From assembly GCF_000706765.1 (NCBI RefSeq), contig NZ_CP006018.1:186001-250000 (forward strand): 64,000 nt of DNA. Direction: 5' to 3'. Shown here one piece after another: positions 23,097-53,350 of this stretch. Position numbers and translations under genes: made by a program. The notes beneath the pieces are model-generated. The model was not told the DNA's origin, did no database searches, and was given only the letters and a program-made list of their open reading frames with translations. This DNA is from Bifidobacterium [indicum] DSM 20214 = LMG 11587. GTDB lineage: Bacteria; Actinomycetota; Actinomycetes; Actinomycetales; Bifidobacteriaceae. Numbering within the stretch: position 1 is the first letter of the stretch; every line of letters begins with the position of its first letter.

Positions 23097-26000
23097 TTAC
23101 TCGTGTGAAGTATTGGTGGTTGTGGGTGGTACGCGTCGTTGTCGGTTGGCGTCGGATGTTGCGATGCCGAGCATGCCGGCGGTGATGAGGAGGATGATGC
23201 CTGCGCCTCCGGCGTTGGGCAGGCTGCCGGTGTGCCGGTAGGTGTAGGTGTTGCTGGTGTCGTCGGGCTGGGGTTGCCCGGCGAGGGTCCACCGGACGCG
23301 TGCGGGCGCGGTTCCGGGGTCGTGGGCGGTGGTGGTGGCCTGCCAGGTGCCCGCGCCGGTCTGCCTGAGGGGGAGGGTGTCGTTGTCGATGGCGAGGCCG
23401 GTGGGTGTGGGTTGCGGGGGGATGGAGGCCTTGCGTGGTGCGGGTGTGGGGTTGGTGTCGCCGTGGCCTGTCTGTCCGTTGGTGTTGTCTCCCCAGGCCT
23501 GGGTGCTGCCGTTGGTGTCGATGGCGATGGTGGTGTCGCCGCCTGTGGCGGTGAGGGTGGTGTTCAGGCCGGTTATGACGGTGGGTGTGCCGGGGGTGTC
23601 GGTGGTGTGGCCGAGCTGGCCTTGGGTGTTGTCTCCCCAGGTCCAGGTGCGGTGGTCCTGTCCGGTGGCGGCGCTGTGGTTGCGTCCGGTGGAGGTGTGG
23701 GTGAACCGGTACGTTTCGGCCGTGCCCGCGGGCTGGATGCGTGTGGGTGTGGTGGTGTCGGTGCCGTCGGCGAGCCTGCCCCAGGCCCAGAGTCGTCCCT
23801 GCCGGTCGATGGCGAGCGTGTGGTCGCCTCCGGCGCTGGCCTGGACGTAGCCCGCGGGCTGCTGTGGGTCGGCCGTGCCGGCGGTGGCTGCTGCGGCTGC
23901 GGGTGTTCCGGTGTCGTCGTGTCCGAGCTGGCCGTGGGTGTTCGATCCCCACGTGTAGAGCTGCCCGTCGGATCCGATTGCCGCGGCGTGCGTGTCGCCC
24001 GCCGCGATCTGCTCGTACCGGAACGCGGGGGGAGCGTCCTGGGGCAGGGCGACCCTGACGGGCCGGGAGCTGCCGGTGGTGTGTGCCGTGTCGCCGAGCC
24101 CTCCGGGCAGGCTGCCCCACGCGTAGAGGTTGTCGTCGGAGCCGAGGGCCATGGTGTAGCCGTCGCCCGCCGCGGCCCGTATCCAGGTGAACGTGCTGTC
24201 GGTGCCGGCGGGACGGGAGACCTTGACGGGCCTGGCGTGCCGGCTGGTGGTGCCGTCGCCGAGCTGGCCCTGGGTGTTGTCTCCCCATGCGTACAGGTTC
24301 CCGTCGCTTCCAACCGCGGCGCTGTGGGTGCGGCCGGCCGCGGCCTGCGTCCAGGTGAATCCGTCACCGGTGCCGTCGGGTTTGGCGACCCGGACCGGGG
24401 TGGTGCGTCGGGTGGTGGTGCCGTCGCCGAGTTGTCCGTTGGTGTTGTCTCCCCATGCGTAGAGTTGTCCGTCGGATCCGATGCCGAGGCTGGTGGTGCC
24501 GCCGGTGTCTATGGAGGCGAGGCGGATGTCGGGCGCGGCGGGTGCGGTGAGGGTGACGGTGTCGTCGCCGTATTCGCTGCCGTGGTCCGGGCTCAGGACC
24601 CACCGTCCGGTCCGGTGCCAGCGTGCGGTCACGGTCAGGTCGTGCTCCAGGGGGGCGGTGAAGTCGTAGGCGATGTCCCCGTTGAACCATCCGTCGAAGG
24701 TCCACCCGTTTTCGGACGGGTCTTCGGGCCGTCTGGTGGGTTCGCCTGTGGGGACCTGCTGCGTGTCGGGGGTGCGTCCGTGTTGGGTGGTGAAGGTGAG
24801 GGTGGCCATGTCGCCCGTGTACATGAATTGCAGGCTGGTGTCCTCGTCGCGTGCCTGCCCGGTGCCGGACCGGATGGTCAGGGGCACGGTCTCGGGCCGG
24901 TGCCTGGGGGAGGCCGCGTGCCACCCGTCCGTCCGGCGCCGCACCTCTCCCGCGCTCGGCTTGGCGCCGAACAGGACCCCGGTGACGGGGGAGCCGGCAG
25001 GGCGCGACACCATGGCCGGGTCCGGGTGGGCCGCGTCTGCATCGCTGGTGCCGGTGCCGAGCTGGCCGGTGCCGTTGGCGCCGGACGCGTACGTGTCTCC
25101 GTCGGAGCCGACGGCCAGGGTATGGGAGCCGACGGGTGACGTGCTGAGGCTCGTGTATGCGAACCCCGAGGGTGTTCCCCTGGGGTTGGGCACGCGGGCA
25201 GGTGTCACGCCGTCGCTGGTGCCGTTGCCGGTGGTGGTGCCCAGCTGGCCGTACTGGTTGCCGCCCCACGCCCAGGCCCCCGATCCGGTGAGGACGACGG
25301 AGTGGGTGCGTCCGGCGCTGACGCCGGTGGCTCCGGACGGGCCGGGGACCGGGCCCGGCCTGCCCGCGGGCTCGGCGCCGGTGGGGGTGCGGCCGAGCTG
25401 TCCGTTCTCGTTGTGTCCCCACGTGTAGACGGTCCCGTTCCGGGCGACGCCCACGCTGTGGTCTGCTCCGGCGCTGACGGCCGTGAGCCGCAGGCCGGTA
25501 TCGACAGGCGATGGAGTGAAGTCGGTGTGGCCGGTCAGGTCGTCGTCGTTTGTGTTGCTGGTGGTGTCGCGGCCGCCCCAGGTCCAGGCGGTCCCGTTCG
25601 TGTCCAGGCCGATGGAGTGCCTGGCGCCGGCGCTGACGGAGGCGAAGGCCGCCTCGGGCACGCCTACGCCCGTGGGCGTTGTGGTTGTTGTTTCGGTGCC
25701 TGTGCTGAAGCCCAGCTGACTGTATTGGTTGTCTCCCCAGGTCCAGATGTTGCCGTCCCGGTCCAGGGCCGTGCTGTGGTCGGTTCCGGCGCTGACGGCG
25801 ATGAACGTCATGCCGGCGGGGGTGGCGGCCTTGCCGGGCCTGTCGGCGGGGTTGTTGTCGTCTGGGGTGCGGCCGAGTTGTCCTTTTTCGTTGCTGCCCC
25901 AGGTCCAGATTCTGCCGTCCCGGTCCAGGGCCATGGAGTGGCTGCCTCCGGCGGCCGTCTGGATGAATCCTGTGCCTGTGGGTGTGGTGGCTTTGGTGGC

Positions 26001-28358
26001 GGTGGTCTGGTTTGTGGTGGTGCCGTTGCCGAGCTGGCCGTTCTGGTTGTTGCCCCATGCGTACAGGTTGCCGTCGCTGCCGACGGCAAGCGAGTGGGAC
26101 TGTCCGGCGGACATCTGGGCGAGTCTGACCTGTACGGTGGGGGTGTCGATGCGGACGTCGGTGCCGCCCCGCCAGGGCCCCTGGGCCGGGTCAGCCTTCC
26201 ACCGGCCCCAGCGCGCGGTCAGAATCGTGTCCCCGCTTACGGGCTTGGAGAAGTCGTAGGGCTTGTCGCCCTGGAACCAGCCGTTGAAGGTCCACCCGTC
26301 GTCCGTGGCGGGGTCGTCGGGCCGTCGGACGGTGTCGCCGACGATGACCTGCTGCGGGGGCGTGGGTGAGCCGTGTTCCGTTTTGAAGGTGACGGTGGCG
26401 GTGTCGCCGGTGTAGGTGAACCGCCGGCTGGTCTCGTCGGGCTGGGGTGCGCGGTTGGTGACGGCGGACTGGATGGTGAGGGTGACGGTGCCGAGGCTGT
26501 GCCTGGGGGAGGTGGCGTGCCACCCGTCGAACGCGCGGTATGGGCCGCCGATGTTGCGGGCCTCACCGAACAGCACCTTCGTGAGATCCCGGTCGACAGG
26601 ACGCCAGGTCCTGGCGGGCTGCGGGTTGGCAGGGTCGCTGTCGGTGGAGGTGCCGTTGCCGAGCTGGCGGAAGTGGTTCTGTCCGTACGTGTATGTTTCG
26701 CCGTCCGAGCCGAGGAGCACGGTGTAATTCTCGGCACCGGCTGCGATGCTGGTGTAGCGGAAGCCCGTGGGGGCCCCGGCGGGGGTTACCACCCGGGCTG
26801 GGGTGTCCGTGATCTTGCCTGTTCCGGTTCCGAGCTGGCCGAAATCGTTCGATCCCCACGCCCATACGCCTGTGTCGGTGATGGCGAGGGAGACGCCGGT
26901 GTCTGCGATTGCTTTACTGTTGCTGGTGTCGACTTGGGTGGCTCCGGTCAGGCCGGGGACCCGGCCGGGCTTGTCGGCGGGGTTGGCGCTGTCGGGGATG
27001 CGTCCCAGCTGTCCGGACTCGTTTCCGTTGTTCTCGACGTTCCAGGTCCAGACGGTCCCGTCCCGCGCGATGGCGATGAAATGGTCGTTGTCGTAGTCGA
27101 TGCTGTAGGCCTTGAACCTGACATCGGTCTCGACGGGGACAGGTTTGAATTCGGTCCACTGCCAGGTCCAGATTCTGCCGTCCGTGTCGAGGGCCGTATA
27201 TGCGTTTTTGCTGGGATTGCTTCCTGCTCTGATGGCGGTGAAGACGGTCCCCTCGTCCTGGTCAACCTTGTGGGGCGTCTTTTCGTCGAAGTATCCCCAG
27301 GTCCATGCCTGTCCATTGCTGTCGAGGGCCATGGAACTGTTATTGCCTGCGGAGACGGCGGTGAACGTCACCCCCTCCGGCACCTCGGCCAGACCGGGAG
27401 AGACTTGAAATATGCGGCCGGGGCGGCCGAGATTGCCGCCGAAGTCGAACCCCCAGGTCCAGATTCTGCCGTCCCGGTCCAGGGCCATGGCGTAGTTATA
27501 TCCGGCGGACACCTGGGTGAACTTCACGCCATCCGGCATGGCGGCCATCCGTGGTGCATCACAGTACAGGCTCCGGTCGCCTGTCCCCAGCTGTCCGGAA
27601 TAGTTGAATCCCCATCCGTATGCGTTGCCGTCGCTGCCCAAGGCAATGGAGAATCCACCGCCTGCGGATATATGGCTGAAGCGTACCTGGCTGCCGGGGG
27701 TGTCGATTTTGACGTTGGTGCCGCCGTGCCAGGGTCCTTTGTCTGGGCTGGTGGCCCATTTGCCCCATTTGGCGGTGAGGGTCAGGTCGGTGGTGACGGG
27801 CCTGGTGAAGTCGTAGGCGAGGTCGCCTTGGAACCATCCGTTGAAGGTCCATCCTGGCCTGGTGGGGTCGTCGTGGGGCCATGTGGCGGTCTTGCCGTCG
27901 GTGATGGTCTGGCTGGCCGGCATGCCCTGGGTGTCTGGCTGGGAGGTGAAGGTGACCGTGTGGCTGCCGGTCCTGGCCTGCGGCCCGGGGGCCTGCGCGC
28001 CGTCGGGTGCTGGTGTGGTGGCCTGTCTGGTGGTGAGTGGGTTTGGTGTGGCCAGGGTGGTGGGTGTCGCGGAGGTTGTCGTTGGCTGCGTCGCTGCTGC
28101 CGGGGACTGCGGTGTCGTGGTGGGTGACGGTGTCGCGGCCGGTGTGGTGGTTCCTGTGGGTGCGGTCAGGCCGTCATCCGCGGCTGCGGGTTGACCCCCC
28201 CCCCCGTTGATTTGGGAGTAGGGGGCGGCGGTCGTCTGGAGGGTGTCGGCGGCCTGAGCGCCCGCGGCCAGGCCGCCGCCCATGATGGACAGGGCCGCCA
28301 GGACCGCGACGGCAGGGCGCGCGAAACGACGACCATGGAACGTGTTCCAAGTGTGCAT
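23097..28358 (-). CDS. Giant RCC1/InlB-B-repeat surface protein 1, phase-variable candidate
   Basis: 1753 residues. A signal peptide (basic FHGRRFARP, hydrophobic core, AQA-A cleavage near residue 36) and a Pro/Thr/Ala-rich linker to ~130 precede three modules of ~520-530 residues. Each module has an InlB-type B-repeat (WTFNGWFQGD-like core near residues 173, 692, 1223), then GPxxGGTxVxI, the first strands of an IPT/TIG domain, seven RCC1 blades of ~50 residues (YAWGDNTNGQLGDGT-type), then VLFGxxx...DGWHATSPRHxxGTVTLTI, which looks like the rest of the TIG fold. The C terminus has LPNAG at 1713-1717, a membrane span and RQRR, a sortase-type anchor with Ala replacing Thr. Coded residues ~52-55 lie on an 11-G tract (28195-28205). 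GAGG lies 8 nt before the ATG. Role unknown; adhesion or host interaction is inference. Confidence 0.85.
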   Translation of the reverse strand: MHTWNTFHGRRFARPAVAVLAALSIMGGGLAAGAQAADTLQTTAAPYSQINGGGGQPAAADDGLTAPTGTTTPAATPSPTTTPQSPAAATQPTTTSATPTTLATPNPLTTRQATTPAPDGAQAPGPQARTGSHTVTFTSQPDTQGMPASQTITDGKTATWPHDDPTRPGWTFNGWFQGDLAYDFTRPVTTDLTLTAKWGKWATSPDKGPWHGGTNVKIDTPGSQVRFSHISAGGGFSIALGSDGNAYGWGFNYSGQLGTGDRSLYCDAPRMAAMPDGVKFTQVSAGYNYAMALDRDGRIWTWGFDFGGNLGRPGRIFQVSPGLAEVPEGVTFTAVSAGNNSSMALDSNGQAWTWGYFDEKTPHKVDQDEGTVFTAIRAGSNPSKNAYTALDTDGRIWTWQWTEFKPVPVETDVRFKAYSIDYDNDHFIAIARDGTVWTWNVENNGNESGQLGRIPDSANPADKPGRVPGLTGATQVDTSNSKAIADTGVSLAITDTGVWAWGSNDFGQLGTGTGKITDTPARVVTPAGAPTGFRYTSIAAGAENYTVLLGSDGETYTYGQNHFRQLGNGTSTDSDPANPQPARTWRPVDRDLTKVLFGEARNIGGPYRAFDGWHATSPRHSLGTVTLTIQSAVTNRAPQPDETSRRFTYTGDTATVTFKTEHGSPTPPQQVIVGDTVRRPDDPATDDGWTFNGWFQGDKPYDFSKPVSGDTILTARWGRWKADPAQGPWRGGTDVRIDTPTVQVRLAQMSAGQSHSLAVGSDGNLYAWGNNQNGQLGNGTTTNQTTATKATTPTGTGFIQTAAGGSHSMALDRDGRIWTWGSNEKGQLGRTPDDNNPADRPGKAATPAGMTFIAVSAGTDHSTALDRDGNIWTWGDNQYSQLGFSTGTETTTTTPTGVGVPEAAFASVSAGARHSIGLDTNGTAWTWGGRDTTSNTNDDDLTGHTDFTPSPVDTGLRLTAVSAGADHSVGVARNGTVYTWGHNENGQLGRTPTGAEPAGRPGPVPGPSGATGVSAGRTHSVVLTGSGAWAWGGNQYGQLGTTTGNGTSDGVTPARVPNPRGTPSGFAYTSLSTSPVGSHTLAVGSDGDTYASGANGTGQLGTGTSDADAAHPDPAMVSRPAGSPVTGVLFGAKPSAGEVRRRTDGWHAASPRHRPETVPLTIRSGTGQARDEDTSLQFMYTGDMATLTFTTQHGRTPDTQQVPTGEPTRRPEDPSENGWTFDGWFNGDIAYDFTAPLEHDLTVTARWHRTGRWVLSPDHGSEYGDDTVTLTAPAAPDIRLASIDTGGTTSLGIGSDGQLYAWGDNTNGQLGDGTTTRRTTPVRVAKPDGTGDGFTWTQAAAGRTHSAAVGSDGNLYAWGDNTQGQLGDGTTSRHARPVKVSRPAGTDSTFTWIRAAAGDGYTMALGSDDNLYAWGSLPGGLGDTAHTTGSSRPVRVALPQDAPPAFRYEQIAAGDTHAAAIGSDGQLYTWGSNTHGQLGHDDTGTPAAAAATAGTADPQQPAGYVQASAGGDHTLAIDRQGRLWAWGRLADGTDTTTPTRIQPAGTAETYRFTHTSTGRNHSAATGQDHRTWTWGDNTQGQLGHTTDTPGTPTVITGLNTTLTATGGDTTIAIDTNGSTQAWGDNTNGQTGHGDTNPTPAPRKASIPPQPTPTGLAIDNDTLPLRQTGAGTWQATTTAHDPGTAPARVRWTLAGQPQPDDTSNTYTYRHTGSLPNAGGAGIILLITAGMLGIATSDANRQRRVPPTTTNTSHE
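28195..28205 (-). repeat. Homopolymeric tract of 11 G (coding strand) inside giant gene 1
   Basis: Eleven consecutive C on the plus strand encode GGG GGG GGG GG(T) early in the 1753-residue protein. With 10 G the frame becomes VNPQPRMTA then stop; with 12 G it becomes STRSRG then stop. As given, the gene is in frame. Confidence 0.9.
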
Positions 28359-28402
28359 ACGACAAACCTCACCAACTCATATCCCCGCCCGGATGACAGC
28401 CG

Positions 28403-28729: not shown

Positions 28730-31700
28730 TTAATGGTGTTTGGGGATGCGCCGCTGCCGGTTGGCTGTGGCGGCGGCAAGGATAAGGGTGCCTGCGATGA
28801 TCAGGAGGACGATGCCTGTGCCTCCGGCATTGGGCAGGGTGAAGATGTGCAGATAGGTGTACGTGTTGGAGGTGTCATCGGGCTGGGCCTGTCCGGCGAG
28901 GGTCCATCTGACGCGCACGGGCACAGCCCCGGGGTCGTGGGCCGTGGTGGTCGCCTCCCAGGTGTTCGGTCCTGTCCGGCGCAGGGGGAGCGTGGTGGAG
29001 TCGATGGTCAGGTCGGTGGGTGTTGGGTGAGGGGGAATGGCGGAGGTGCATGGCGTGGGGGTTTCGCCGGTGTCCCCGTGTCCGCCCTGTCCGTTGGAGT
29101 TGTTTCCCCATGCCTGGGTGTTGCCGCTAGTGTCGATGGCGATGGTGGTGTCGGCCATGCTGGCGGTGACGGTGGTGTTCAGACCGGGTATGACCGTGGG
29201 CCGCTTTGGGGTGCTGGTGGCGTGCCCGAGCTGTCCATTGGTGTTGTCGCCCCAGGTCCAGGTGCGGTGGTCTTCTCCGGTGGCGGTGTAGTGGGCGCGC
29301 CCGGTGGACGTGTGGGTGAACCGGTATGTATCGGTCGTGCCTGCGGGCTGGATACGTGCGGGGGTTGCGGTATCGGTGCCGTCGGCGAGGGTGCCCCAGA
29401 CCCAGAGACGTCCCTGCAGGTCGATGGCCATAGTGTGGTCGCCTGCGGCGCTGGCCTGAACATAGCCTACGGGCTGCTGCGGGTCGTCCCAGGCGGCCAC
29501 GGTGGGTGTGGCTGCGGCGGCAGGTACTCCGGTGTCGGCGTGGCCGAGCTGCCCATGTGTGTTCGATCCCCAGGTATACAGGTTCTCATCCGACCCGATC
29601 GCCGTGGCATGCCTGTCACCGGCAGCGATTTTCTCGAAGCGGAACGTGGGTGGCACGCCTTGAGGCAGGGCGACCATGACGGGTCGGGTGCTGGCGGTGG
29701 TGCCGTTGATGTCACCGAGTCCACCGGGCAGACTGCCCCAGATATACAGGTTGTCGTCTGACCCGATCGCCAAGGTGTATCCGTCACCGGCTGCGACCCG
29801 AATCCAGGTGAGCCCCTTCCCGCCAGGGAGGATGACCTTGACGGGTGTGGTGCGTTGGGTGTTGGTGCCGTCTCCGAGTTGCCCGCAGGTGTTGTCTCCC
29901 CATGCGTACAGGTTGCCGTCGGATCCGACGGCGGCGCTGTGGGTGCGTCCGGCCGCGGCCTGCACCCAGAAGAACCCGGTGTCGGTGCCGTCTGGGCGGG
30001 GAATCAGGGTGGGAGTGGTGTGCTGGCTTGTGGTGCCGTCTCCGAGTTGGCCGTCGGTGTTGTCTCCCCATGCGTACAGGTTGCCGTCCGAACCGACGCC
30101 CAGGGAGGACGATCCGCCCGTATCCACGGATGCCAGACGGAGGCCGGGTGCTGCGGGTGCGGTCAGGGTAAGCGTGTCACCACCGTGTTCACTGCCGTGG
30201 TCCGGGCTCAGGACCCATCGGCCGGTGCGGTGCCAGCGTCCGGTCACGGTCAGGTCGTGCTCCAGGGGCGCGGCGAAATCGTAGGCCACGTCCCCGTCGA
30301 ACCACCCGTCGAAGGTCCACCCCTCCTCGGACGGGTCCGCGGGGCGCTGGGTGGGCTCTCCCGCGGCAACCTGCTGCGCGGGTGTGGGGGCGCCGTGATC
30401 GGACACGAAGCTCAGAGTAACGATGTTGCCCGTGAAAGTGAACGTCAGACCAGTGTCCTCGGTTCTGACTGGGGCTGAGCGAATGCCGGTGGAGGACTTG
30501 ACGGTCAGGGAGACGGTCTCAGGCCTGTGCCGGGGCGAGACGGTAAGCCACCCGCCCGCTGTGCGCTGCACTTTGCCAATATTCGGTTTGGTGCCGAACA
30601 GAACACTCGTGATTGAGGCGCCCACTGGATGCCAGACCATCGTCGGTTTATTTGCCCCTGCCAGGCCAACAGTCGCTTCATTGATGGTGTTGTCTCCGAG
30701 CTGCCCGCTGGCGTTACTTCCGAACGCATATGCTTCGCCGTTGGAACCGATGGTCAGTGTGTGCTCGCCCGACATGCTGGCGACGGCGTTGGTATACACG
30801 AACCCCGCGGGTGTCCCCTCTGGTGCCGGTATGCGTTCGGGGGTGTCGACACCGCTGCTGGATCCGTTGTTGGTACCGGTGCCCAGCTGGCCCTGGGCGT
30901 TGAGGCCCCATCCCCAAACGTCGGTGCCGGTGATGGCGATAGAGTACCTGCGGCCGGCGCTGATGCCGGTTGCTCCGGTGAGGCCGGGGACCCGTCCGGG
31001 CCGGTTGGCGGGTGCGGTGGTGGTTGGGGATCGGCCCAGCTGCCTGGTCGACCAGTTTCCCCAAGACTGGACGGTGCCGTCCTGAGCGATTGCCAGGGAG
31101 TGGTAGTAGCCGGCGCTGACGGCTGTGAATCGTAGGTCGGTATCTACCGGGGCAAGATCGGTGCCGCCGGCGTGACCGAGTACGGTTTCGGTGCGGATGT
31201 GGCTGTTGTCGATGCCGCCACCCCAGGACCATGCGGTTCCGTCGGCAGATAGGCCTATGGAGTGCGTGAGGCCGGCACTGACCATAGTGAATGCGGTTCC
31301 CCTCGATGGCCTTATTTTCTCAGGTGTTGCATCGTTGGTACCGCTGGTGTCGCGCCCCAGCTGTTTGTAGGTGTTATTTCCCCAGGTCCAGATGTTGCCA
31401 TCCTGGTCCAAGGCTGCAGAGTGTGTCCGCCCGGCGCTGACGGCGATGAAACCTACGTCCTTGGGTGCGGCGACCAGGCCTGGTCGTCTTGCAGGGGTTG
31501 CCGCGGTGGGAGTGCGGCCCAGCTGTCCGTCCGAGTCGAATCCCCAAGTCCAGATTCTGCCTTCGCTGTCGAGAGCCATGACGTGATAAAAACCGGCGGA
31601 TACCTGAATGATTTTCGCACCCTCGGGCGTGAAGACCGGTATCGGGGCAGGCAGGTCGTTTTTTTCATATTCGGCTACTTGCGAGTAGTGGTTGTAACCC

Positions 31701-34075
31701 CATCCGTATACGTTGCCGTCGCTGCCGACGGCCAGAGAGCAGTTCCTGCCTGCAGTTATTTGGGCGTATCGTACCTCGGAGGTGCTTCGGCTAAGGTGCA
31801 CTTCGGTGCCGCCTTGCCATGGTCCTTGTGTGGGTGTGGTGGTCCATTGTGCCCATTTGGCGGTGAGGGTGAGGTCGTGGGTGACGGGTTGGGAGAAGTC
31901 GTATGGAGTGTCTCCTTGGAACCAGCCGTTGAAGGTCCATCCGTCGTGGGTGGGTGGGTCGTCGGGTCGTGGGGCGGTGTCGCCTTTGGGGATGGTCTGG
32001 GGTGGTGGGGGTGTGCCGTGGTCGGTGTGGTAGGTGATGGTGGCGGTGTCGCCGGTGTAGGTGAACCGGCAGCTGGTGTCGTCGGGTTGGGGTGTGCCGT
32101 GGTCGGTGTGTGTGATGGTGAGGGTGACGGTGCCGATGGGGTGTCTGGGCGAGGTGGTGTGCCATCCGTCGGGTTCGCGGTGGGGTGTGGCAAGGTTGTG
32201 TGACTGGCCGAAGAGGATGTCAGTGGGTTGCCAGTGGGTGGGCTGCCAGGTGGTGGTGGGCCGTGTGGTGGGGTTTTGAGTGTTGTCGCCGAGCTGGCCG
32301 GTGGTGTTGTTGCCGGTGGCGTAGGTGTGGCCGTCGTTACCGAGGAGGAGGGTGTGGGCCGGGGTGCCGGTGCCGGTGGTGGCGGGTGCGGCGGCGGTGT
32401 AGTGGAAGCCGGGTGCTGCCCTGTCGGGTGCGGGGATGGGTGCGGGCGTGGTGACGTCGTCGGTGCTGCCGCCGAGCTGGCCGTGGTCGTTGAGGCCCCA
32501 TGCCCATGCGGTGTCGGGGGTGATGGCGGTGCTGACACCAGTGCCGGCGTTGACGCGGGTGGCTTCGGTGGGTCCGGGAGCCTGTCCGGGCCGGTCGGCG
32601 GGGTTGGCGCTGTCGGGGGTGCGGCCGAGCTGGCCGTGGCTGTTGCGGCCCCAGGTCCAGACGGTGCCGTCGCGGGCGATGGCGATGGCGTGGTCGTCGC
32701 CGCTGCTGACGGCGGTGAAGCGTTGGGTGGTGTCGACGGGGGCGGGGGTGTCCCGGGGGCCGTCGTGGCCGACGGCGCCGGTGTCGGTGTCGGCCCAGGA
32801 CCAGATCCTGCCGTCGGTGTCGAGGGCCATGGCGGAGCCGGCGGAGGAGCTGACGGCGGTGAAGGCGGTGCCTGTGGGCATGGGGACCCTGGCGGGGGTG
32901 GCGCCGTTGCCGGTGCGGCCGAGGCTGTTGCGGCCCCAGGTCCATACCCCGCCGTCGGTGTCGAGGGCCATGGAGTGGTGGGGGGCGGCGCTGACGGCGG
33001 TGAACCTTACACCCGCGGGCGTGGCGGCGGGTCCGGGCCTGGAGGCCTGGCCTCCGGTGGTGCCGCGGCCGAGGGAGCCGTCGGTGTCGTCGCCCCAGGT
33101 CCATGCCCTGCCGTCGCGGTCGAGGGCGATGGCGTGGGAGTCGCCGGCAGCGATGGCGGTGAACCCGACCCTGTCGGGCATGGCGGCCATGGCGGGGGCG
33201 GCGCGGTGGGAGGGCGCGCCCTCGCCGGCGCCAAGCTGGCCGGTGGTGTTGTCGCCCCAGGTGTAGGCGTTGCCGTCGCTGCCGAGCGCGACGGAGAACC
33301 CGGCCCCGGCGGCGACCTGGGTGAACCTCACCCCGTCGGCCGCGTCGGAGATCCTGACGTCGGTGCCGCCCTGCCAGGGGCCCCGGTCGGGGGTCACGGA
33401 CCGGCGGCCCCACCGGGCGGTCAGCGTCACGTCGCCGGTCACGGGCGCGGAGAAGTCGTACGCGGCGTCGTCCAGGAACCACCCGTTGAACGTCCACCCC
33501 GGCCGGGACGGATCCTCACGCGGCCAGGACGCCGTGCCCCCGTCCGGCACCGACTGCGCCCCCGGCACGCCCGTGCTGTCCGCCTCCGACGAGAACGACA
33601 CCGTATGCACCACACCCGCGCGCACACCCACCGCCGTCTGCACGGAAGGGGCGTCCGCGGCGTGGGACGACAAGGGGCTCGACGTCGCCAACCCTGCCGG
33701 ACCCGAAGGCAACACCACACGGGACCGGCCGGCAGCCGACAAAGAGGACACACCCGAAACAGTGGGGCCACCCGACGAGGACACGCCGGAAGACAGGGAG
33801 CCACCGGACGAAGACGACGAGGCATCGGAAGAAGAGGACGACGAGGCGTCGGACGACGGGGAAGGGACCCGATCCGGACCATCCACCGGGACGGGGCGAG
33901 CCTGGCCGCTGTCGGCAGGGGCCAGGACCCCGGGTGCCGCCCCAGCGGACACCGGGGAATCGACCGCCTGCGCAATGGACACCAGGCCGGCACCCAAGAC
34001 CGCCATCACCGACACGACGGCAACCACCGGGCGAGCCAAACGACGACGGCTCTGGAACACGTTCCACATACGCAT
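28730..34075 (-). CDS. Giant RCC1/InlB-B-repeat surface protein 2
   Basis: 1781 residues, a tandem paralogue of the gene at 23097. Signal peptide in the first ~37 residues (FQSRRRLARP then hydrophobic core ending AQA), a Ser-rich, low-complexity linker, then three modules with B-repeat cores near residues 197, 715 and 1255, each followed by an IPT/TIG-like half, seven RCC1 blades and the other IPT/TIG-like half. The third module is close to that of protein 1 (both have RWHRTGRWVLSPDHGSE). LPNAG at 1747-1751, a membrane span and a short basic tail RQRRIPKHH end it. The tail is shorter than that of protein 1: a TAA occurs where DNA matching the last codons of gene 1 continues in another frame. 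GAGGA lies 9 nt before the first ATG; no homopolymer tract like that of gene 1 was seen. Confidence 0.85.
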   Translation of the reverse strand: MRMWNVFQSRRRLARPVVAVVSVMAVLGAGLVSIAQAVDSPVSAGAAPGVLAPADSGQARPVPVDGPDRVPSPSSDASSSSSSDASSSSSGGSLSSGVSSSGGPTVSGVSSLSAAGRSRVVLPSGPAGLATSSPLSSHAADAPSVQTAVGVRAGVVHTVSFSSEADSTGVPGAQSVPDGGTASWPREDPSRPGWTFNGWFLDDAAYDFSAPVTGDVTLTARWGRRSVTPDRGPWQGGTDVRISDAADGVRFTQVAAGAGFSVALGSDGNAYTWGDNTTGQLGAGEGAPSHRAAPAMAAMPDRVGFTAIAAGDSHAIALDRDGRAWTWGDDTDGSLGRGTTGGQASRPGPAATPAGVRFTAVSAAPHHSMALDTDGGVWTWGRNSLGRTGNGATPARVPMPTGTAFTAVSSSAGSAMALDTDGRIWSWADTDTGAVGHDGPRDTPAPVDTTQRFTAVSSGDDHAIAIARDGTVWTWGRNSHGQLGRTPDSANPADRPGQAPGPTEATRVNAGTGVSTAITPDTAWAWGLNDHGQLGGSTDDVTTPAPIPAPDRAAPGFHYTAAAPATTGTGTPAHTLLLGNDGHTYATGNNTTGQLGDNTQNPTTRPTTTWQPTHWQPTDILFGQSHNLATPHREPDGWHTTSPRHPIGTVTLTITHTDHGTPQPDDTSCRFTYTGDTATITYHTDHGTPPPPQTIPKGDTAPRPDDPPTHDGWTFNGWFQGDTPYDFSQPVTHDLTLTAKWAQWTTTPTQGPWQGGTEVHLSRSTSEVRYAQITAGRNCSLAVGSDGNVYGWGYNHYSQVAEYEKNDLPAPIPVFTPEGAKIIQVSAGFYHVMALDSEGRIWTWGFDSDGQLGRTPTAATPARRPGLVAAPKDVGFIAVSAGRTHSAALDQDGNIWTWGNNTYKQLGRDTSGTNDATPEKIRPSRGTAFTMVSAGLTHSIGLSADGTAWSWGGGIDNSHIRTETVLGHAGGTDLAPVDTDLRFTAVSAGYYHSLAIAQDGTVQSWGNWSTRQLGRSPTTTAPANRPGRVPGLTGATGISAGRRYSIAITGTDVWGWGLNAQGQLGTGTNNGSSSGVDTPERIPAPEGTPAGFVYTNAVASMSGEHTLTIGSNGEAYAFGSNASGQLGDNTINEATVGLAGANKPTMVWHPVGASITSVLFGTKPNIGKVQRTAGGWLTVSPRHRPETVSLTVKSSTGIRSAPVRTEDTGLTFTFTGNIVTLSFVSDHGAPTPAQQVAAGEPTQRPADPSEEGWTFDGWFDGDVAYDFAAPLEHDLTVTGRWHRTGRWVLSPDHGSEHGGDTLTLTAPAAPGLRLASVDTGGSSSLGVGSDGNLYAWGDNTDGQLGDGTTSQHTTPTLIPRPDGTDTGFFWVQAAAGRTHSAAVGSDGNLYAWGDNTCGQLGDGTNTQRTTPVKVILPGGKGLTWIRVAAGDGYTLAIGSDDNLYIWGSLPGGLGDINGTTASTRPVMVALPQGVPPTFRFEKIAAGDRHATAIGSDENLYTWGSNTHGQLGHADTGVPAAAATPTVAAWDDPQQPVGYVQASAAGDHTMAIDLQGRLWVWGTLADGTDTATPARIQPAGTTDTYRFTHTSTGRAHYTATGEDHRTWTWGDNTNGQLGHATSTPKRPTVIPGLNTTVTASMADTTIAIDTSGNTQAWGNNSNGQGGHGDTGETPTPCTSAIPPHPTPTDLTIDSTTLPLRRTGPNTWEATTTAHDPGAVPVRVRWTLAGQAQPDDTSNTYTYLHIFTLPNAGGTGIVLLIIAGTLILAAATANRQRRIPKHH

Positions 34076-46402: not shown

Positions 46403-49400
46403 CTACTCCCGGGGCCTCTTCAACTGTCGTTGCCTTGCCGCGGCAGCCGCCATGGTCAGCAACCCTACGACCAGCAGGAGGACGATGCCGATGCCGCCTG
46501 CGTTTGGGAGCCTGGCAGTGTGCTGGTAGGTGTAGGTGTTGGAGGTGTCGTCGGGTTGGGGGTACCCGGCGATGGTCCACTGGATGCGGGCGGTGGTCGA
46601 TCCGGGTTCATGGGCAGGTGTGGTGATCTGCCAGGTGCCGTCGGGTTGTTGACGGATGTTGGTGCTGTCCTGCCCGTCGAAGGAGATTCGGGTGGGTACT
46701 CCGTCGGCTGGAATGGTGATGGGGGTTGCTTCGGTGAGGTCGGCGGATCCGGCTCTTGTGCCACCCTGGTGGTTGGTGTTCTGCCCGAATCCATAGGCCG
46801 TCCCGCTGGTTCCGATGGCCAGGCTGTGGTCACCTGCGGCGCTGATGGCGCGGGCGGTGAGTGCCTGATTGGGGGTATCAGGGTTCTTGGCCTGTGCGGG
46901 TTGCTGTGAAGCGCGCCCGTCGGCGAGCTGGCCGTGGGTGTTGTCGCCCCATCCGTAGACCACCTGATTGGTTCCGATGGCCAGGCTGTGGCTTCCCCCT
47001 GCCGCCAGCTGGGTGTAGGCGAACCCTTCGGGTGCGCCCTGGGGGAGCGGTACCTGGACGGGTACGGTCTGGTCTCCGCTCAAGGCAGGGGTGGTCTGTC
47101 CGCTGTTGTTGCGGCCCCAGGCCCAGGCGTGTCCGTCCTCGTCCAAGGCCAGGGCATGATAGGCACCTGCGCTGATCTGGGTGAAGACGGGGGCCTTGTC
47201 GGCTCCTGCGGGTGTGGCAATGGGCCCGGGCAGTCCGCTTCCGCTGCTCGTGCTGCCTTGGCCGAGCCTGCCGTTGGAGTTGGATCCCCAACTGTATACC
47301 TGCCCGTCATTACCGAGTGCCAGGGCGAATCCGTCTCCAGCGCTGATGCGGGTGTACCGGAATTCCGGTGCGGCTCCGGTTGGGGCGGCGACCCGGACGG
47401 GCAGGGCGGAGGAGGTGCTGGTGCCGTCGCCGAGGCCGTTGGTGTTGGATCCCCAGGCGTAGACGTTGCCGTCGCTGCCGAGTGCCATGAGCTGCTGACC
47501 GCCGACTGCGACCTGCGTATACCGGAATTCGGGTGCGGTTCCGGTTGGGGTGGCGACTCGGACGGGCAGGGCGGAGATGGTGCTGGTGCCGTCGCCGAGG
47601 CCGTTGGTGTTGGATCCCCAGGCGTAGACGTTGCCATCAGAGCCCAGGCCGATGCCCATGGATTCACCGGCCTGGACCTGGGTCCAGGTGAATCCGTTGC
47701 CTGCTCCGGTCGGAGTGGCGACTCTTACGGGGGTGGACCGGTCGGTGCGGGTCCCGTCGCCGAGCTGACCACTATCGTTGGATCCCCAGGCGTAGGCGTT
47801 GCCGTCTGAGCCGATGCCCAGTGAGTTTCGACTTCCTGCGCTGACCTGGGCCAGGCGCATGCCGCCTGGTGCGGGAGGGGTCAGGGTGACGGTCTCGCCG
47901 CCGGAGTCAATGCCATGATCCGGACTCAGCGTCCAGTGGCCGGGCTGGTGCCAGTGGGCGGTAAGGGTCATGTCCCGGTCGATGGGCTGGGTGAAGTCGT
48001 AAGCCGTATCTCCGTCAAACCATCCGTCGAACACATGGTCCGCTCGTGTGGGGTCGGAGGCGGGCCGTGACGTGGTCCCATCCTCGTCCACTGTGGCATC
48101 GGGAGGGACGGGTGTCCCTCCGTTGGTGTCGTAGGTGACGGTGTACCGGCTCGGGGCATAGGTGTAGTCCAGGTCGGTGTCGGGTTGTGGTTTGCCGTTC
48201 AGACTCCATCGGATGGTCAGGGGTACCTGGCCGGGCCGGTGCTTCCTCGCTGGTGCAGTGACCTGCCAGGAATCGTCGGTTTGTGGGCTGGGGTTTCCGC
48301 CAGGTCGAGCCCCGAATGCGGTCGAGGTGACCTGCAAGGCGGGGAAAGTGGTCTTTCCGGGTCTGGATCGGGGCGTGTCGGTTCCTTCGCCGAGCTGACC
48401 GTGGGTGTTGTCGCCCCAGGTATGCAGGGTACCTGCCGAGTCGATGCCAAGGGTGTGGCTCATCCCCACTGCGGCCCGCTTCCATGTGAAGTTCGCCCGG
48501 CCCGGGGTGGTGATGGCGACTGGCAAGATCTTGTCGGTATTGGTGCCGTCGCCGATCTGGCTGTTTGTGTTGCTTCCCCAGGTGTAGAGAGCTCCAGTGG
48601 AGATGATGGCCTGCGAGGTCTGACCCCCGGCGGAGACTCTCAAGATATCGGCACCGTAGGGCAGATTGGACTTGGTAGGCAGGGGGTTGTCGGCCTTTGC
48701 AGAGTAACTACCGATTTGGCCGTGCCGGCCGGAGCCGAATGCGTACACGGCGGTGGTGTCGGCGGTGGTGTTGGTTGCGATGGCAAGGGTGTGGTCCTTG
48801 CCTGCGGCCAGATACAACCAGGTGAAGCTTGGGGGCGCGCCGGTCGGGGTGCGTACGGGAGAGGGGGTGGCCGTGGTGGTGCCGGTCTTATTGTCTCCCA
48901 GCTGGCCGTAGGTGTCGTCGCCCCAGGCGTACAGGGTGCCGTTGTTGGCTATGGCGAGGGAGTGATTGCCGCCGGCCTGTATCTGTGTGTAGACCAGCCC
49001 GGGCGGCGTACCTTTGGGCATCGGGCGTATTGCGGGTGTGCCGGTGGCGCTGCCTGCCGTTCCGCGTCCGAGCTGGCCGTAGGTGTCGTTGCCCCAGGTC
49101 CAGACGTGTCCGGTCGTGTCCAGGGCGATGGTATGGTCGTCGCCGGTATTGATCTGAGTGAATCGTGTATCGCCAGTGGAGGCAAGCCCGGGTGTGGAAT
49201 CATCTCCGCCGACCGTTCCGCGTCCGAGCTGTCCGTCCGAGTTGTCGCCCCATGTCCAGATTCGTCCGGTGGTGTCGAGGGCTGCCGTGTGGTTCCTGCC
49301 TGCCGTCGCCTGGGTGAAGCGCACATCCGCAGGTGCGGCGGTGCCGGTGGGGAGGGTGCGTCCGGTGTGGGTGCCGTCGCCGATTTGGCCGTGGGTGTTG

Positions 49401-52400
49401 TCACCCCACGCGTATACCTGTCCGTCACTGGAAACGGACACGGAATGGGAGCCGCCTGCGTTGATGCCGGCTAGGCGGGCGCCTAGTGCTCCGGAGGGGG
49501 CGGTGAGGGTTACGGACGTCCCGCCTCCGGTGGGGCCGGATGCGGGTGACCGTGACCAGGAACCGGGACGGCTCCATTTGGCCGTCACAGTGGTGTCTTC
49601 AGAGATGGGCTGGGTGAAATCGTAGGCCGCTTCGCCCTGGAACCATCCGTCGAACTGGTATCCGGCACGGGTCGGATCCGTGTCAGGCCGGCTGGCAAGT
49701 CCCCACTCATCCACGGTCTGGACGATAACCGGGTCCCCGTTACCCGGGTCGAACCTGACCTGGTTCTTCAATGGCAGATATGTATAGGACAGGATTTCCA
49801 CACCCTGGTTTAGATCCGTCCGTGTCCATGGCACCCGTAGCTCCACCTGTCCCGGCGAATGGGCAGGAGGGCGCGCAATCCAGGAACCATCCGTCTGTCG
49901 CGTCACCACGCCCTGGGCCGGTACTCCGTCGAAGGTGACGCTGGACAGGGTCAACGGCCACGGAAACCATACGCTAGCGGGCTCGTAAGTGGTAACTGGC
50001 CCCTTTGGACCGCGTCCGAGCTCGTCGGCTGCGTTGTAGCCGAAACCGTAGGTGGAACCATCGGAGCCGATGATCAGCGTGTGACCACTGTAGCTGGAGG
50101 AGTTTGCTTGTAGGGTGTGGTAGGAGAAACCGTCGGGTGCGTCCTTGGGTGTAGGTATGAGGGTAGGCATGGGCACGCCCTTGCTGTTATCGCCGGTGCT
50201 GGTGGAGATGCCCAGCTGTCCAGAGTGGTTGCGGCCCCAGCCCCATGTACCTGTGGAGTTGATGGCGACGGAAGAGAGATTTTGCGAGGCACTGATGTCG
50301 GTGACCCCAGACAGGTTATCGACACGTCCGGGCCTGCCGGCGGGGTTGGCACTGTCGGGTGTGCGACCTAATTGGCCATAACCGTTGAGGCCCCAGCTCA
50401 GGACGGTACCGTCTGAGGCAATGGCCAAGGAGTAATCACCTCCTGAGCTGACTTTCGTGAACTTCAAATCACTGTTGACCGGACGGGGGCCTGGTCCTGG
50501 CAATGAGTCAGTACTTCCGGCACGCCCGGACCGCTCGTCAAAGTAACCCCAGGTCCAGGCGGTCCCGTCGTCGGTCAGTGCTGTGGAGTGCCGGTCGCCA
50601 GCACTGATGGCAACGAAGGTGGCTCCACTGGACATTGCCACTTTTGCGGGAATACCGTATTCCGCGGAAGAGGCGTACCGTCCGAGCGTGTTCCAGAAGT
50701 TTTCTCCCCATGTCCAGATGTTTCCGTCCTGGTCCAAGATCACCGAAAAGTCTTGGCCGGCGCTGACGGCAATAAACGTTACGCCTGTCGGCACGGAGAT
50801 TAAACCAGGCTTGTTGTTCGGGTTTGCAACGTCCGGTAAACGGCCGAGCTTGCCTTGACTGTTGTCTCCCCATGTCCAGACTCTGCCCTCGCTGTCCAGG
50901 GCCAAGGCATGTTTGCTGCCTGCGGATACCTGAGTGAATTTCACGCCTTCGGGCGCGGATACCTTCACAGGGGCGTTGGCTCTAGGCGATGTGGTACCGT
51001 CGCCCAGTTGGCCGCAAGAATTGGTTCCCCAAGCGTATACGTTCTGGTCGCTTCCCAGTCCCAACGAGAACCAACCGCCCGCTGCCACTTGGCTGAAGGC
51101 GATACGACTTGGTGGGTCAAGCCGTATATCATTGCCGCCTGTCCGCGGGCCTGAACTGGGATGGACAGACCACTGGCCGTTCCCGTATGTCCACCGGGCT
51201 TTCAACGTGATGGGGCTGGTAACGGGAGTGAAGAAGTCGTAGGCGACATCGCCCTGGAACCATCCGTCAAAGGTCCATCCATCCTCGGAGGGATCGCTTG
51301 GGCGCTGGGCTATGTCACCGACTACGACCTCCTGCTGGGGTATGGGGGCTCCGTGTTCGGATTGGAAGGTCACGGTGGTAGAGGTGCCGGTGTACGTGAA
51401 CTGATGGCCGGTCTCGTCGGGTTGCGCGATGCCGTCGATGGTGGATTGAATGGTGAGGTCGACGGTGCCGGGGCTTTGCCTGGGGGCGGTGGTGTGCCAC
51501 CCGTCGGCCCGACGGAACATGCCGGTTGCGTTGTTCTTGGCTCCGAATATGACGGTAGTGACCTCCCTGCTGATGTGTCTCCAAACCATACCCATCTTGA
51601 GGGAGCTTTTTATTTTGTTCTTGCCAAGCTCTCCAGCACCTTCATTTCCAGTGCCGTAGGCATTGCCGTCGGACCCGATTGCCAAGGTCCTGAAGTCGTT
51701 TTGGTTTGCAACATTAGGCGCGAAGCTGATGTACTTGAATCCGTCGGGAGCCCCATCGGGAGCAACCATGCGTGTTGGTGTGGCTGAGTCGGTGGTGGTG
51801 TTTATGCCGAGCTGTCCTTGATTATTCCGTCCCCAGGCCCAGCTCCCGATGCTGGAGGTGGCTGTTGAATATCGGGTTCCTGCGCTAATAACGCTGATGT
51901 CGGTCAGGCCGGGGACGGGCCCTGGTCGATTGGCCGGGTTGCGTGTTGTGGGCATGCGTCCCAGCTGGCCGTAATCATTGCTTCCCCAAGTTTGGAGGGT
52001 GCCGCCCGTGTCCACGGCCATGGAGTGATCTCCGCCGGCGCTGATATCTGTGAATTTCAGATTGGTATCGACCGCGGCGGGTGCGGTGCCGGTGTGGCCA
52101 ATCCAGTCCCCGTAGGTGTCTGCCCAGGTCCAAACGGTCCCGTCAGCTGTCAGGGCCATGGAGTAGTTTCTGCCCGCACTGATGGCTGTGAAAACGGTAT
52201 CTGCAGGGAGCTGCGCCTTACCAGGTATATCTGAGGGGTTGGAGCTACTGTTGGGGCGTGCAAGTTGATTGCCCCATGCAGGCCCCCAGGTCCAAACTTC
52301 GCCATTCTGGTCCAGAGCCATGGCAAAGTTTTGTCCGGCGCTGATGGAAGTGAATGTCACGCCTGTCGGCATGGTGACCATGCCGGGTCTGTTGGCGGGG

Positions 52401-53350
52401 TTGGCGGCATCGGGGCTGCGACCCAGTTTTCCATAATTGGCGTTACCCCAAGTCCATACCCTGCCCTGACTGTCCAGGGCCATGGAAAACATGTAGCCTG
52501 CGGATACCTGGATGAATTTCACGCCCTCGGGCATGGAAACCATTCGCGGGACCGTGGAGTAGGTTATGTCAACGATTCCCAGCTCGCCGTTAGAGTTGTT
52601 TCCCCATGTGTATACGTTCCCGTCGCTGCCCACCGCTACGGAGTGCGAATGGCCTGCCGAAACCTGAGCAAACCGATTCTGATCCGTGGGCAAACTCACC
52701 TGAACGTCGGTGCCGCCCCTCCAGGGTCCCTGGGTCGGGCTGATGGACCACTTGCCCCATTTGGCAGTAAGAGCCGTGTCCTTCGTTACCGGCCGGGTGA
52801 AGTTGTAGGCGACGTCGCCCTGGAACCATCCGGCAAAGGTCCACCCAGGCCGGGTGGGATCGCTGAGAGGCCGGGTGGCGGTCCTTCTGTCGGCGACCGT
52901 CTGGGCGGCAGGCATGCCTTGGGTGCCGGCCTCGGAGGTGAATGTAACGGTATGGCTGTCACCGGATCTGGCCGCCGGTTCACGGGATTTTGCGGCCTCC
53001 TGGTCTGAGTCCTCGCTTGACAGTGGATTGGGAGTCGCCAGCTGGGATGGTCCGGAATCGGATTGCGGGGTGGCAGTGGTTGACGATGGTGCCGGTTCAG
53101 CGGGCCGTGAGGCAGACGGTGTAGGGAGCGGTGATGAAGGCGTATCCGAGGGAGACAAGGTGGAACCCTTGCCGGGGTTCAGGGTCTGAAGACCTGTGTC
53201 TTCTCCCGTCCGGGACAGTACGGACTGGTCCGCCGACTGTGCGTCAGCCGGGTCGGAACCTGCCATCAGACCAACCCCCATGGCGGCCAGGACGGCAAGC
53301 GCGCCTATGATCGGCCTGGCGATGTGCCTGGATACGCTGTTATTGTGCAT
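46403..53350 (-). CDS. Giant RCC1/InlB-B-repeat surface protein 3
   Basis: 2315 residues, the largest gene here. Signal peptide (SRHIARPIIGALAVLAAMGV, likely cut near residue 38), a Ser/Thr/Pro-rich linker to ~130, then four modules with B-repeat cores near residues 175, 695, 1233 and 1774. Each module has the IPT/TIG-like first half (GPxxGGTxVxL), an RCC1 propeller and the second half: VIFGAKNN..., VTFDGVPAQG..., TAFGARPGG..., ISFDGQDST..., each followed by DGxW...P.HxPGxVxLxI. I count seven blades in module 1. LPNAG at 2281-2285, a membrane span and a basic tail RQRQLKRPRE end it. GGGGAG lies ~8 nt before the ATG. Unlike genes 1 and 2 it has its own terminator, and no long G tract inside the coding start. 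Function unknown. Confidence 0.85.
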   Translation of the reverse strand: MHNNSVSRHIARPIIGALAVLAAMGVGLMAGSDPADAQSADQSVLSRTGEDTGLQTLNPGKGSTLSPSDTPSSPLPTPSASRPAEPAPSSTTATPQSDSGPSQLATPNPLSSEDSDQEAAKSREPAARSGDSHTVTFTSEAGTQGMPAAQTVADRRTATRPLSDPTRPGWTFAGWFQGDVAYNFTRPVTKDTALTAKWGKWSISPTQGPWRGGTDVQVSLPTDQNRFAQVSAGHSHSVAVGSDGNVYTWGNNSNGELGIVDITYSTVPRMVSMPEGVKFIQVSAGYMFSMALDSQGRVWTWGNANYGKLGRSPDAANPANRPGMVTMPTGVTFTSISAGQNFAMALDQNGEVWTWGPAWGNQLARPNSSSNPSDIPGKAQLPADTVFTAISAGRNYSMALTADGTVWTWADTYGDWIGHTGTAPAAVDTNLKFTDISAGGDHSMAVDTGGTLQTWGSNDYGQLGRMPTTRNPANRPGPVPGLTDISVISAGTRYSTATSSIGSWAWGRNNQGQLGINTTTDSATPTRMVAPDGAPDGFKYISFAPNVANQNDFRTLAIGSDGNAYGTGNEGAGELGKNKIKSSLKMGMVWRHISREVTTVIFGAKNNATGMFRRADGWHTTAPRQSPGTVDLTIQSTIDGIAQPDETGHQFTYTGTSTTVTFQSEHGAPIPQQEVVVGDIAQRPSDPSEDGWTFDGWFQGDVAYDFFTPVTSPITLKARWTYGNGQWSVHPSSGPRTGGNDIRLDPPSRIAFSQVAAGGWFSLGLGSDQNVYAWGTNSCGQLGDGTTSPRANAPVKVSAPEGVKFTQVSAGSKHALALDSEGRVWTWGDNSQGKLGRLPDVANPNNKPGLISVPTGVTFIAVSAGQDFSVILDQDGNIWTWGENFWNTLGRYASSAEYGIPAKVAMSSGATFVAISAGDRHSTALTDDGTAWTWGYFDERSGRAGSTDSLPGPGPRPVNSDLKFTKVSSGGDYSLAIASDGTVLSWGLNGYGQLGRTPDSANPAGRPGRVDNLSGVTDISASQNLSSVAINSTGTWGWGRNHSGQLGISTSTGDNSKGVPMPTLIPTPKDAPDGFSYHTLQANSSSYSGHTLIIGSDGSTYGFGYNAADELGRGPKGPVTTYEPASVWFPWPLTLSSVTFDGVPAQGVVTRQTDGSWIARPPAHSPGQVELRVPWTRTDLNQGVEILSYTYLPLKNQVRFDPGNGDPVIVQTVDEWGLASRPDTDPTRAGYQFDGWFQGEAAYDFTQPISEDTTVTAKWSRPGSWSRSPASGPTGGGTSVTLTAPSGALGARLAGINAGGSHSVSVSSDGQVYAWGDNTHGQIGDGTHTGRTLPTGTAAPADVRFTQATAGRNHTAALDTTGRIWTWGDNSDGQLGRGTVGGDDSTPGLASTGDTRFTQINTGDDHTIALDTTGHVWTWGNDTYGQLGRGTAGSATGTPAIRPMPKGTPPGLVYTQIQAGGNHSLAIANNGTLYAWGDDTYGQLGDNKTGTTTATPSPVRTPTGAPPSFTWLYLAAGKDHTLAIATNTTADTTAVYAFGSGRHGQIGSYSAKADNPLPTKSNLPYGADILRVSAGGQTSQAIISTGALYTWGSNTNSQIGDGTNTDKILPVAITTPGRANFTWKRAAVGMSHTLGIDSAGTLHTWGDNTHGQLGEGTDTPRSRPGKTTFPALQVTSTAFGARPGGNPSPQTDDSWQVTAPARKHRPGQVPLTIRWSLNGKPQPDTDLDYTYAPSRYTVTYDTNGGTPVPPDATVDEDGTTSRPASDPTRADHVFDGWFDGDTAYDFTQPIDRDMTLTAHWHQPGHWTLSPDHGIDSGGETVTLTPPAPGGMRLAQVSAGSRNSLGIGSDGNAYAWGSNDSGQLGDGTRTDRSTPVRVATPTGAGNGFTWTQVQAGESMGIGLGSDGNVYAWGSNTNGLGDGTSTISALPVRVATPTGTAPEFRYTQVAVGGQQLMALGSDGNVYAWGSNTNGLGDGTSTSSALPVRVAAPTGAAPEFRYTRISAGDGFALALGNDGQVYSWGSNSNGRLGQGSTSSGSGLPGPIATPAGADKAPVFTQISAGAYHALALDEDGHAWAWGRNNSGQTTPALSGDQTVPVQVPLPQGAPEGFAYTQLAAGGSHSLAIGTNQVVYGWGDNTHGQLADGRASQQPAQAKNPDTPNQALTARAISAAGDHSLAIGTSGTAYGFGQNTNHQGGTRAGSADLTEATPITIPADGVPTRISFDGQDSTNIRQQPDGTWQITTPAHEPGSTTARIQWTIAGYPQPDDTSNTYTYQHTARLPNAGGIGIVLLLVVGLLTMAAAAARQRQLKRPRE

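Follow-up and report, generated by a model that had tools for sequence, protein, structure and literature searches.

How does a bacterium decide which of its giant surface proteins to display, and can a single run of guanines make that decision? The question is raised by a locus of Bifidobacterium indicum DSM 20214 = LMG 11587, within a stretch of 64,000 nucleotides that we call the window (contig NZ_CP006018.1, positions 186,001 to 250,000; coordinates inside it count from its first letter). Here, a gene on the minus strand (23097..28358) encodes a giant protein of 1753 residues built from RCC1 and Listeria-Bacteroides (InlB-type) repeats, and close to its start it carries a tract of 11 G at 28195..28205, in frame as assembled and therefore ON. 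The original prediction was that this tract makes the gene phase-variable. Our analysis supports this: the tract is very probably an ON/OFF switch operated by slipped-strand mispairing, that is, replication slippage. Such a switch is the best reading because two paralogues carry a tract at the same place that is out of frame, one of these differs between two genomes of the species (14 G, OFF; 13 G, ON), the body of a copy that is OFF in both genomes is constrained, and Bifidobacterium breve offers a precedent established by experiment (PMC9187656).

The tract, its frames and its paralogues

The run reads C11 on the plus strand and G11 on the coding strand. It begins at nucleotide 154 of the gene, exactly at codon 52, and fills codons 52-55 (N-GGGG-Q), which matches the predicted position of about 50 codons into the gene. 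The predicted cleavage site of the signal peptide lies 15 residues upstream (PYSQIN-GGGG-Q). Directly before the tract stand the codons for YSQIN (28206..28220, minus strand; TACTCCCAAATCAAC), and YSQIN again stands ahead of the tract in two paralogues and at three sites of G014, the second genome of the species. The frame is kept with 8, 11 or 14 G. With 10 G, translation would run for nine codons past the tract (VNPQPRMTA) to a TGA at 28166..28168 and yield 63 residues in total; with 12 G, it would run for six codons (STRSRG) to a TGA at 28174..28176 and yield 61, both stops lying on the minus strand. These outcomes, worked out anew from the sequence, reproduce the predicted ones to the codon. 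The gene thus has two of the features that characterize poly-G contingency loci, a homopolymer of at least 8 in the 5' coding part and truncation of the product when that homopolymer changes by one base in either direction.

The original prediction noticed no other long homopolymer inside a coding region; among G/C runs, the tract is the only one longer than 7 in the window. Simulations gave an expected number of G/C runs of at least 11 per 64 kb of 0.72 with an order-1 Markov model, which fits poorly as it predicts 16.7 runs of at least 8 where 1 is observed, of 0.05 with an order-3 model, and of 0 in 200 simulations with an order-5 model. Composition alone consequently leaves room for chance, and it is the conservation of the site that carries most of the weight.

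The whole genome holds 18 G tracts of at least 8, of which 14 are of at least 10. Giant RCC1 genes hold three of the 18 at an equivalent position: the window copy is in frame, and the other two, as assembled, are out of frame. G12 at 335142-335153 and G14 at 403050-403063 both follow YSQIN and leave signal and body out of register. A close paralogue at 392431-397614 (81% identical) reads SYTQVNGG with a short interrupted run (AATGGGGGAATG) in frame, and is possibly a switch locked ON. Another G11 tract, at 73346-73356, lies in an apparent relic of a tract-bearing RCC1 gene in which one Listeria-Bacteroides repeat remains; its reading GGGQTPRVAEQ resembles the G12-RQTPRVAKQ of genomes G008 and G022 of the genus. 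In all, nine RCC1 loci with long matches are found in the genome, besides weak fragments, for example at 73 and 1500 kb. Two of the family's genes share the window with the tract-bearing one, at 28730..34075 (1781 residues) and 46403..53350 (2315 residues), both on the minus strand. They lack a tract, as predicted, with no G run of at least 6 on the coding strand. The further claim that only one of the three genes would switch stands for the window's own three; it does not extend to the two tract-bearing paralogues elsewhere in the genome, nor to the likely orthologues of the 46403 gene, which carry a tract in three other genomes.

Comparison with G014 shows how these tracts behave within the species. 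The YSQIN-tract pattern was found in 2 of the 27 genus genomes, these two, at three sites each; a scan of viral contigs returned 0 matches. In DSM 20214 and G014, respectively, the window copy has 11 and 11 G, the 335 kb copy 12 and 12, and the 403 kb copy 14 and 13. At this last locus, where the 300-base flanks are 99.0% and 99.7% identical, the 13 G of G014 allow reading from the signal peptide into the body (ON), whereas the 14 G of DSM 20214 lead to a stop at once (OFF). The 335 kb copy is OFF in both genomes, and its bodies are nevertheless open over 1720 and 1719 codons, with a synonymous divergence (dS) of 0.215, a nonsynonymous divergence (dN) of 0.085 and a dN/dS of 0.40; the window and 403 kb copies have ratios of 0.62 and 0.36, all of them possibly affected by recombination among paralogues. 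Judged from its open and apparently constrained body, the 335 kb gene suggests that OFF copies do not look dead.

Pairing all tracts by their flanks matched 12 of the 18 with G014, the remaining six including one (1237337) with a partial flank match only. Eight of the 12 pairs differ in length (14/11, 10/15, 11/12, 14/13, 10/12, 11/10, 9/11 and 8/11, DSM 20214 given first) and four agree (11/11, 12/12, 10/10 and 9/9). Among runs with three unchanged flanking bases on each side, 3 of 145 differ at length 5, 2 of 24 at length 6, 0 of 2 at length 7 and 6 of 9 at length 8 or more, counts that leave out 68, 15, 3 and 3 runs, respectively, whose flanks had changed. True slippage and sequencing error both grow with length, so this comparison cannot tell them apart.

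Other repeats and tracts were noted in this genome. The 28730 paralogue has short tandem repeats (units of 33 and 24 bases) at 33744-33856, about codons 74-111, in its serine-rich N-terminal part. The 46403 gene has 165-base tandem repeats at 47270-47812, each about one RCC1 repeat by length, which could expand or shrink by recombination. Two intergenic tracts differ in length from G014 and are possible promoter-spacing switches: one at 250368-250377 (10 versus 15), 131 bp upstream of a called gene on the minus strand, and one at 138663-138676 (14 versus 11), 64 bp upstream of a minus-strand called gene with a sirtuin-like start by eye.

Tracts in other species of the genus

Tracts of at least 9 G occur in 27 of 27 genus genomes, with 4 to 103 in each. 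A protein search with the first body domain matched 24 of these genomes, and 30 loci were read from it. Eight have a tract of at least 8: two belong to this species, five lie in G025, G011, G017, G008 and G022, and the last, of 8 G, shortly precedes the start of a different gene. In G025 (15 G, out of frame), G017 (14 G, out of frame) and G011 (13 G, in frame at the tract, with an open frame of only 717 codons), likely orthologues of the 46403 gene have the tract behind the signal peptide; G008 and G022 have 12 G out of frame. G025 corresponds to Bifidobacterium sp. B4142 and G017 to the metagenome-assembled genome SRR11267074_bin.3, each at 100% over the compared locus; the loci of G025 and G011 are 96.2% identical. 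A scan of further genome contigs returned nine loci, seven of them bifidobacterial and two of these seven with tracts, the two non-bifidobacterial loci being left out of the tract reading. No B. indicum or B. coryneforme record was among the nine, in a scan that may omit near records.

In G002, all 80 tracts of at least 9 were read. A signal-peptide-like start precedes 37 of them, with a downstream frame of at least 130 codons, 8 in frame and 29 out of frame. The tract typically follows after 18-19 residues and thus, by eye, lies inside the signal peptide itself. RCC1-like motifs lie downstream of 25 of the 37, seven in frame with 10 G and 18 out of frame with 11 G, and 26 of the 29 out-of-frame tracts are followed by a frame of at least 460 codons. 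The tracts at 64893, 800597 and 1279932 also have long bodies but fail our home-made signal-peptide filter. Similar readings were made in three other genomes: one of seven tracts read in G001 is of the signal-peptide kind (57957, 11 G, out of frame); in G021, 15 of 51 tract loci were read, of which the filter flagged 11 and inspection by eye retained 10, seven in frame and three out; in G026, 14 of 103 were read, a fifteenth at a contig end being left out, with 2 flagged and by eye 1 retained (14 G, out of frame). Six loci could be matched between G021 and G002. Two weaker pairs have equal lengths (11/11 and 10/10), and four have 10 versus 11 G, with identities of 90.6% over 382 bases, 93.3% over 326, 78.9% over 759 and 78.2% over 614; in each of these four pairs, 10 G keep the frame and 11 G break it. 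Lengths are almost uniformly 11 in G002 and 10 in G021, which cautions that assembly bias may contribute.

Two side observations concern the surroundings of these tracts. Parts of G002 (for example C1:794000-813999 and 1690000-1709999) consist of arrays of large surface-type genes, RCC1 and non-RCC1, mostly with G10 or G11 inside the signal peptide. In G026, runs of 17 and 28 G stand close together near C1 299542-299569; they are the longest seen and possibly an assembly fault.

Alternatives to a switch

Several results weigh against a switch at the window tract. Its length is 11 in both genomes of the species, so that variation of this very tract was not observed between them, two genomes being too few to establish a constant 11 G across isolates; moreover, the two are not near-clonal, the body of the window copy being 81% identical in protein. 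No tract of at least 8 lies nearby at 22 of the 30 loci from the body-domain search, many of which are internal domains and not gene starts, or within the 12.5 kb read at five of the seven named bifidobacterial loci (two of B4142 and one each of B. asteroides ESL0199, B. apousia and B. mizhiense). In DSM 20214 itself, 15 of the 18 tracts lie outside full-length RCC1 genes and most are intergenic, so a long G tract alone is no mark of a switch. One alternative is a neutral hotspot, in which long G tracts arise and drift everywhere for want of mismatch repair, and those in surface genes are tolerated accidents. It agrees with the tracts of at least 9 in all 27 genomes, and with the placement, by a home-made gene caller, of the 14 tracts of DSM 20214 outside RCC1 genes and relics: 11 lie clear of any called gene, two touch the end of one, and the last sits in a called gene whose start is doubtful. 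However, the site after YSQIN is kept in three paralogues and in two genomes despite diverged bodies, 37 of the 80 tracts of G002 follow signal-peptide-like starts, and the paralogue with the interrupted run suggests that a tract can be lost. We regard a purely neutral origin as unlikely.

The same lengths could also mislead if the tracts are real but miscalled, in which case all copies would truly be in frame, and the OFF states as well as the 14/13 difference would be errors of sequencing or assembly. Homopolymers of 10-15 G are error-prone, and Penno et al. warn about G-tract lengths, the B. breve population having differed from the annotated length (PMC9187656); both speak for caution about the switch. 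A systematic error could further yield the G002 pattern, in which the 25 genes with RCC1-like motifs have 11 G and are out of frame in 18 cases and have 10 G and are in frame in seven, and the sequencing method used for DSM 20214 was not found in the open-licence literature searched. Yet such an error would be needed at many loci, in several species and in different assemblies, among them that of Bifidobacterium sp. B4142 (15 G, out of frame), whose contig names are of the short-read NODE type. Even with wrong lengths, slippage as in B. breve is to be expected wherever a coding start truly contains G10-G15, and we find general miscalling very improbable. Finally, transcriptional slippage or ribosomal frameshifting could deliver full-length and short products from one genotype, a dosage device in place of an inherited switch. 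G runs of such length can also be slippery for RNA polymerase, and the constrained body of an out-of-frame copy would be explained. But DNA tract lengths differ between genomes, and in B. breve pilus formation is decided by a DNA-level tract change, with transcription dropping after the stop of the upstream frame (PMC9187656). This explanation, which is compatible with replication slippage and does not exclude it, seems rather improbable to us.

From surface protein to a possible surface repertoire

The features around the tract would fit a protein exported and anchored to the wall. A Sec signal peptide is predicted for residues 1-36, ending in AQA (28251..28358, minus strand; cleavage site by eye from the translation), and a Shine-Dalgarno-like GGTGAGG, also found by eye, lies 8 nt upstream of the ATG at 28367..28373 on the same strand. 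At the other end, LPNAG (23208..23222, minus strand) is by eye an LPxTG-like motif, with a hydrophobic stretch and then a basic tail (RQRR) behind it; no anchor model among NCBIfam or Pfam matched this C-terminus. In between, Pfam detects RCC1 repeats (PF25390, 3.1e-237; PF00415, 1.4e-149) and three stretches of Listeria-Bacteroides repeats (PF09479, 3.3e-23), the latter also seen by TIGR02543 (3.8e-07). With these repeats the protein matches the RCC1/Flg_new wall-anchored family of bee bifidobacteria. Three sortases are encoded at 84, 360 and 380 kb of the genome, none adjoining the gene, which lies at 209-214 kb. ATG 146 is the sole in-frame start codon from the tract to codon 200; it comes after the signal peptide and lacks a Shine-Dalgarno-like sequence. 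A promoter scan found no sigma-70-like promoter, and a terminator scan gave eight terminator-like matches against a mean of 4.4 in shuffles, a result not used for any conclusion.

What might drive such a switch? MutS_V was found in 0 of the 27 genus genomes, with controls positive in 11 of 14. Actinobacteria are generally without MutS, and its absence is therefore permissive for unstable tracts and not special. Taken together with the sortases and the precedents in B. breve and Gardnerella, it points to replication slippage with heritable ON/OFF states as the most likely mechanism. The underlying principle is classical: in contingency loci such as meningococcal hmbR/hpuAB, in other proteins and organisms, poly-G in the open reading frame sets ON or OFF by frame.

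The closest known system is found in B. breve UCC2003, where intragenic G tracts switch sortase-dependent pili (bbr_0113, bbr_1889). One culture contained 37% G11, 59% G12 and 3% G10 at the G11 pilus locus; in-frame strains made pilus-like structures, and mouse passage enriched a pilus-permitting length (PMC9187656). In both systems a G10-G11 tract lies near the 5' end of the coding region of a large protein that is secreted and sortase-anchored (in our case by prediction), the OFF state puts signal peptide and body in separate frames, and the bacterium belongs to the same genus in its older sense. They differ in that B. breve has pilin operons with a dedicated sortase and measured slippage, whereas here we read from sequence RCC1-propeller genes with distant sortases. 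Lacking the dedicated sortase of G-tract pilus clusters (Penno 2022), the window gene would work like one without being a member. In Gardnerella, another of the Bifidobacteriaceae, tracts are tied to open reading frames (ORFs) with InlB B-repeats and LPXTG sites, and one homopolymer tract varied between 9 and 10 among colonies; by contrast, some 70% of the G/C tracts there are located upstream of ORFs, and proteins and host are different (PMC11287997).

The protein family has been described from bee bifidobacteria as RCC1/Flg_new/LPxTG surface proteins, with 7-24 genes per genome, mostly in tandem clusters (Ellegaard 2015, PMC4449606; Bottacini 2012, PMC3447821), and the window protein shares its RCC1 repeats and Flg_new ahead of the RCC1 domains, and has a putative LPxTG-like end. 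A word search of the main texts of both papers gave no 'phase variation', 'homopolymer' or 'poly-G'. Among the open-licence papers that the searches listed, the RCC1 surface family joined with phase variation was not found; family and bifidobacterial G-tract mechanism are each known, and it is their combination that we did not find described there. Two of the papers listed, which were left outside this comparison, mention G-tracts in bifidobacteria from humans (PMC10757668, PMC12104195).

In the mechanism we propose, the ribosome would start at the ATG, make the signal peptide and cross the tract. With 11 G, or 8 or 14, it would continue into the RCC1-propeller body, and the product, once exported, would be attached to the wall by sortase (ON). 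After 10 or 12 G, translation would end at 63 or 61 residues (OFF); rescue would need ATG 146, about 90 codons further, which lies beyond the signal peptide and has no clear ribosome site. Slippage would be independent for each tract, with no MutS to stabilize it, and cells of one population would come to differ in which of the giant proteins they display. In this model, we infer that the window tract itself slips, that the protein is exported and attached to the wall, and that OFF cells lose it from their surface. The benefit might be a more varied attachment to the bee hindgut, or evasion of recognition by phage or host.

Following up on this, we lean towards a broader view, held with clear reserve, of bee-associated bifidobacteria as carriers of a combinatorial surface repertoire: in each genome, anywhere from several to several dozen giant wall proteins, propellers and others, would have a G-tract switch of their own, placed behind the signal peptide or within it. 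A clonal gut population would then be a surface mosaic, with the window gene as one member of the set. Apis cerana and Apis mellifera are listed as the hosts of B. indicum and B. coryneforme (PMC10092428), and few surface proteins of bee-gut bifidobacteria are as diverse as the RCC1 giants (PMC4449606); no function is assigned to them in the bee-bifidobacteria literature covered. If they are phase-variable, annotation of a single genome hides which of them are made, and out-of-frame copies may be called pseudogenes. Knock-outs and proteomics from one culture could mislead, and switch states, not gene content, may underlie the differences among strains in phage sensitivity or in colonisation of bees. 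If true, contingency loci of the Neisseria type would also exist in a beneficial symbiont of an insect, a simple host that lends itself to experiments.

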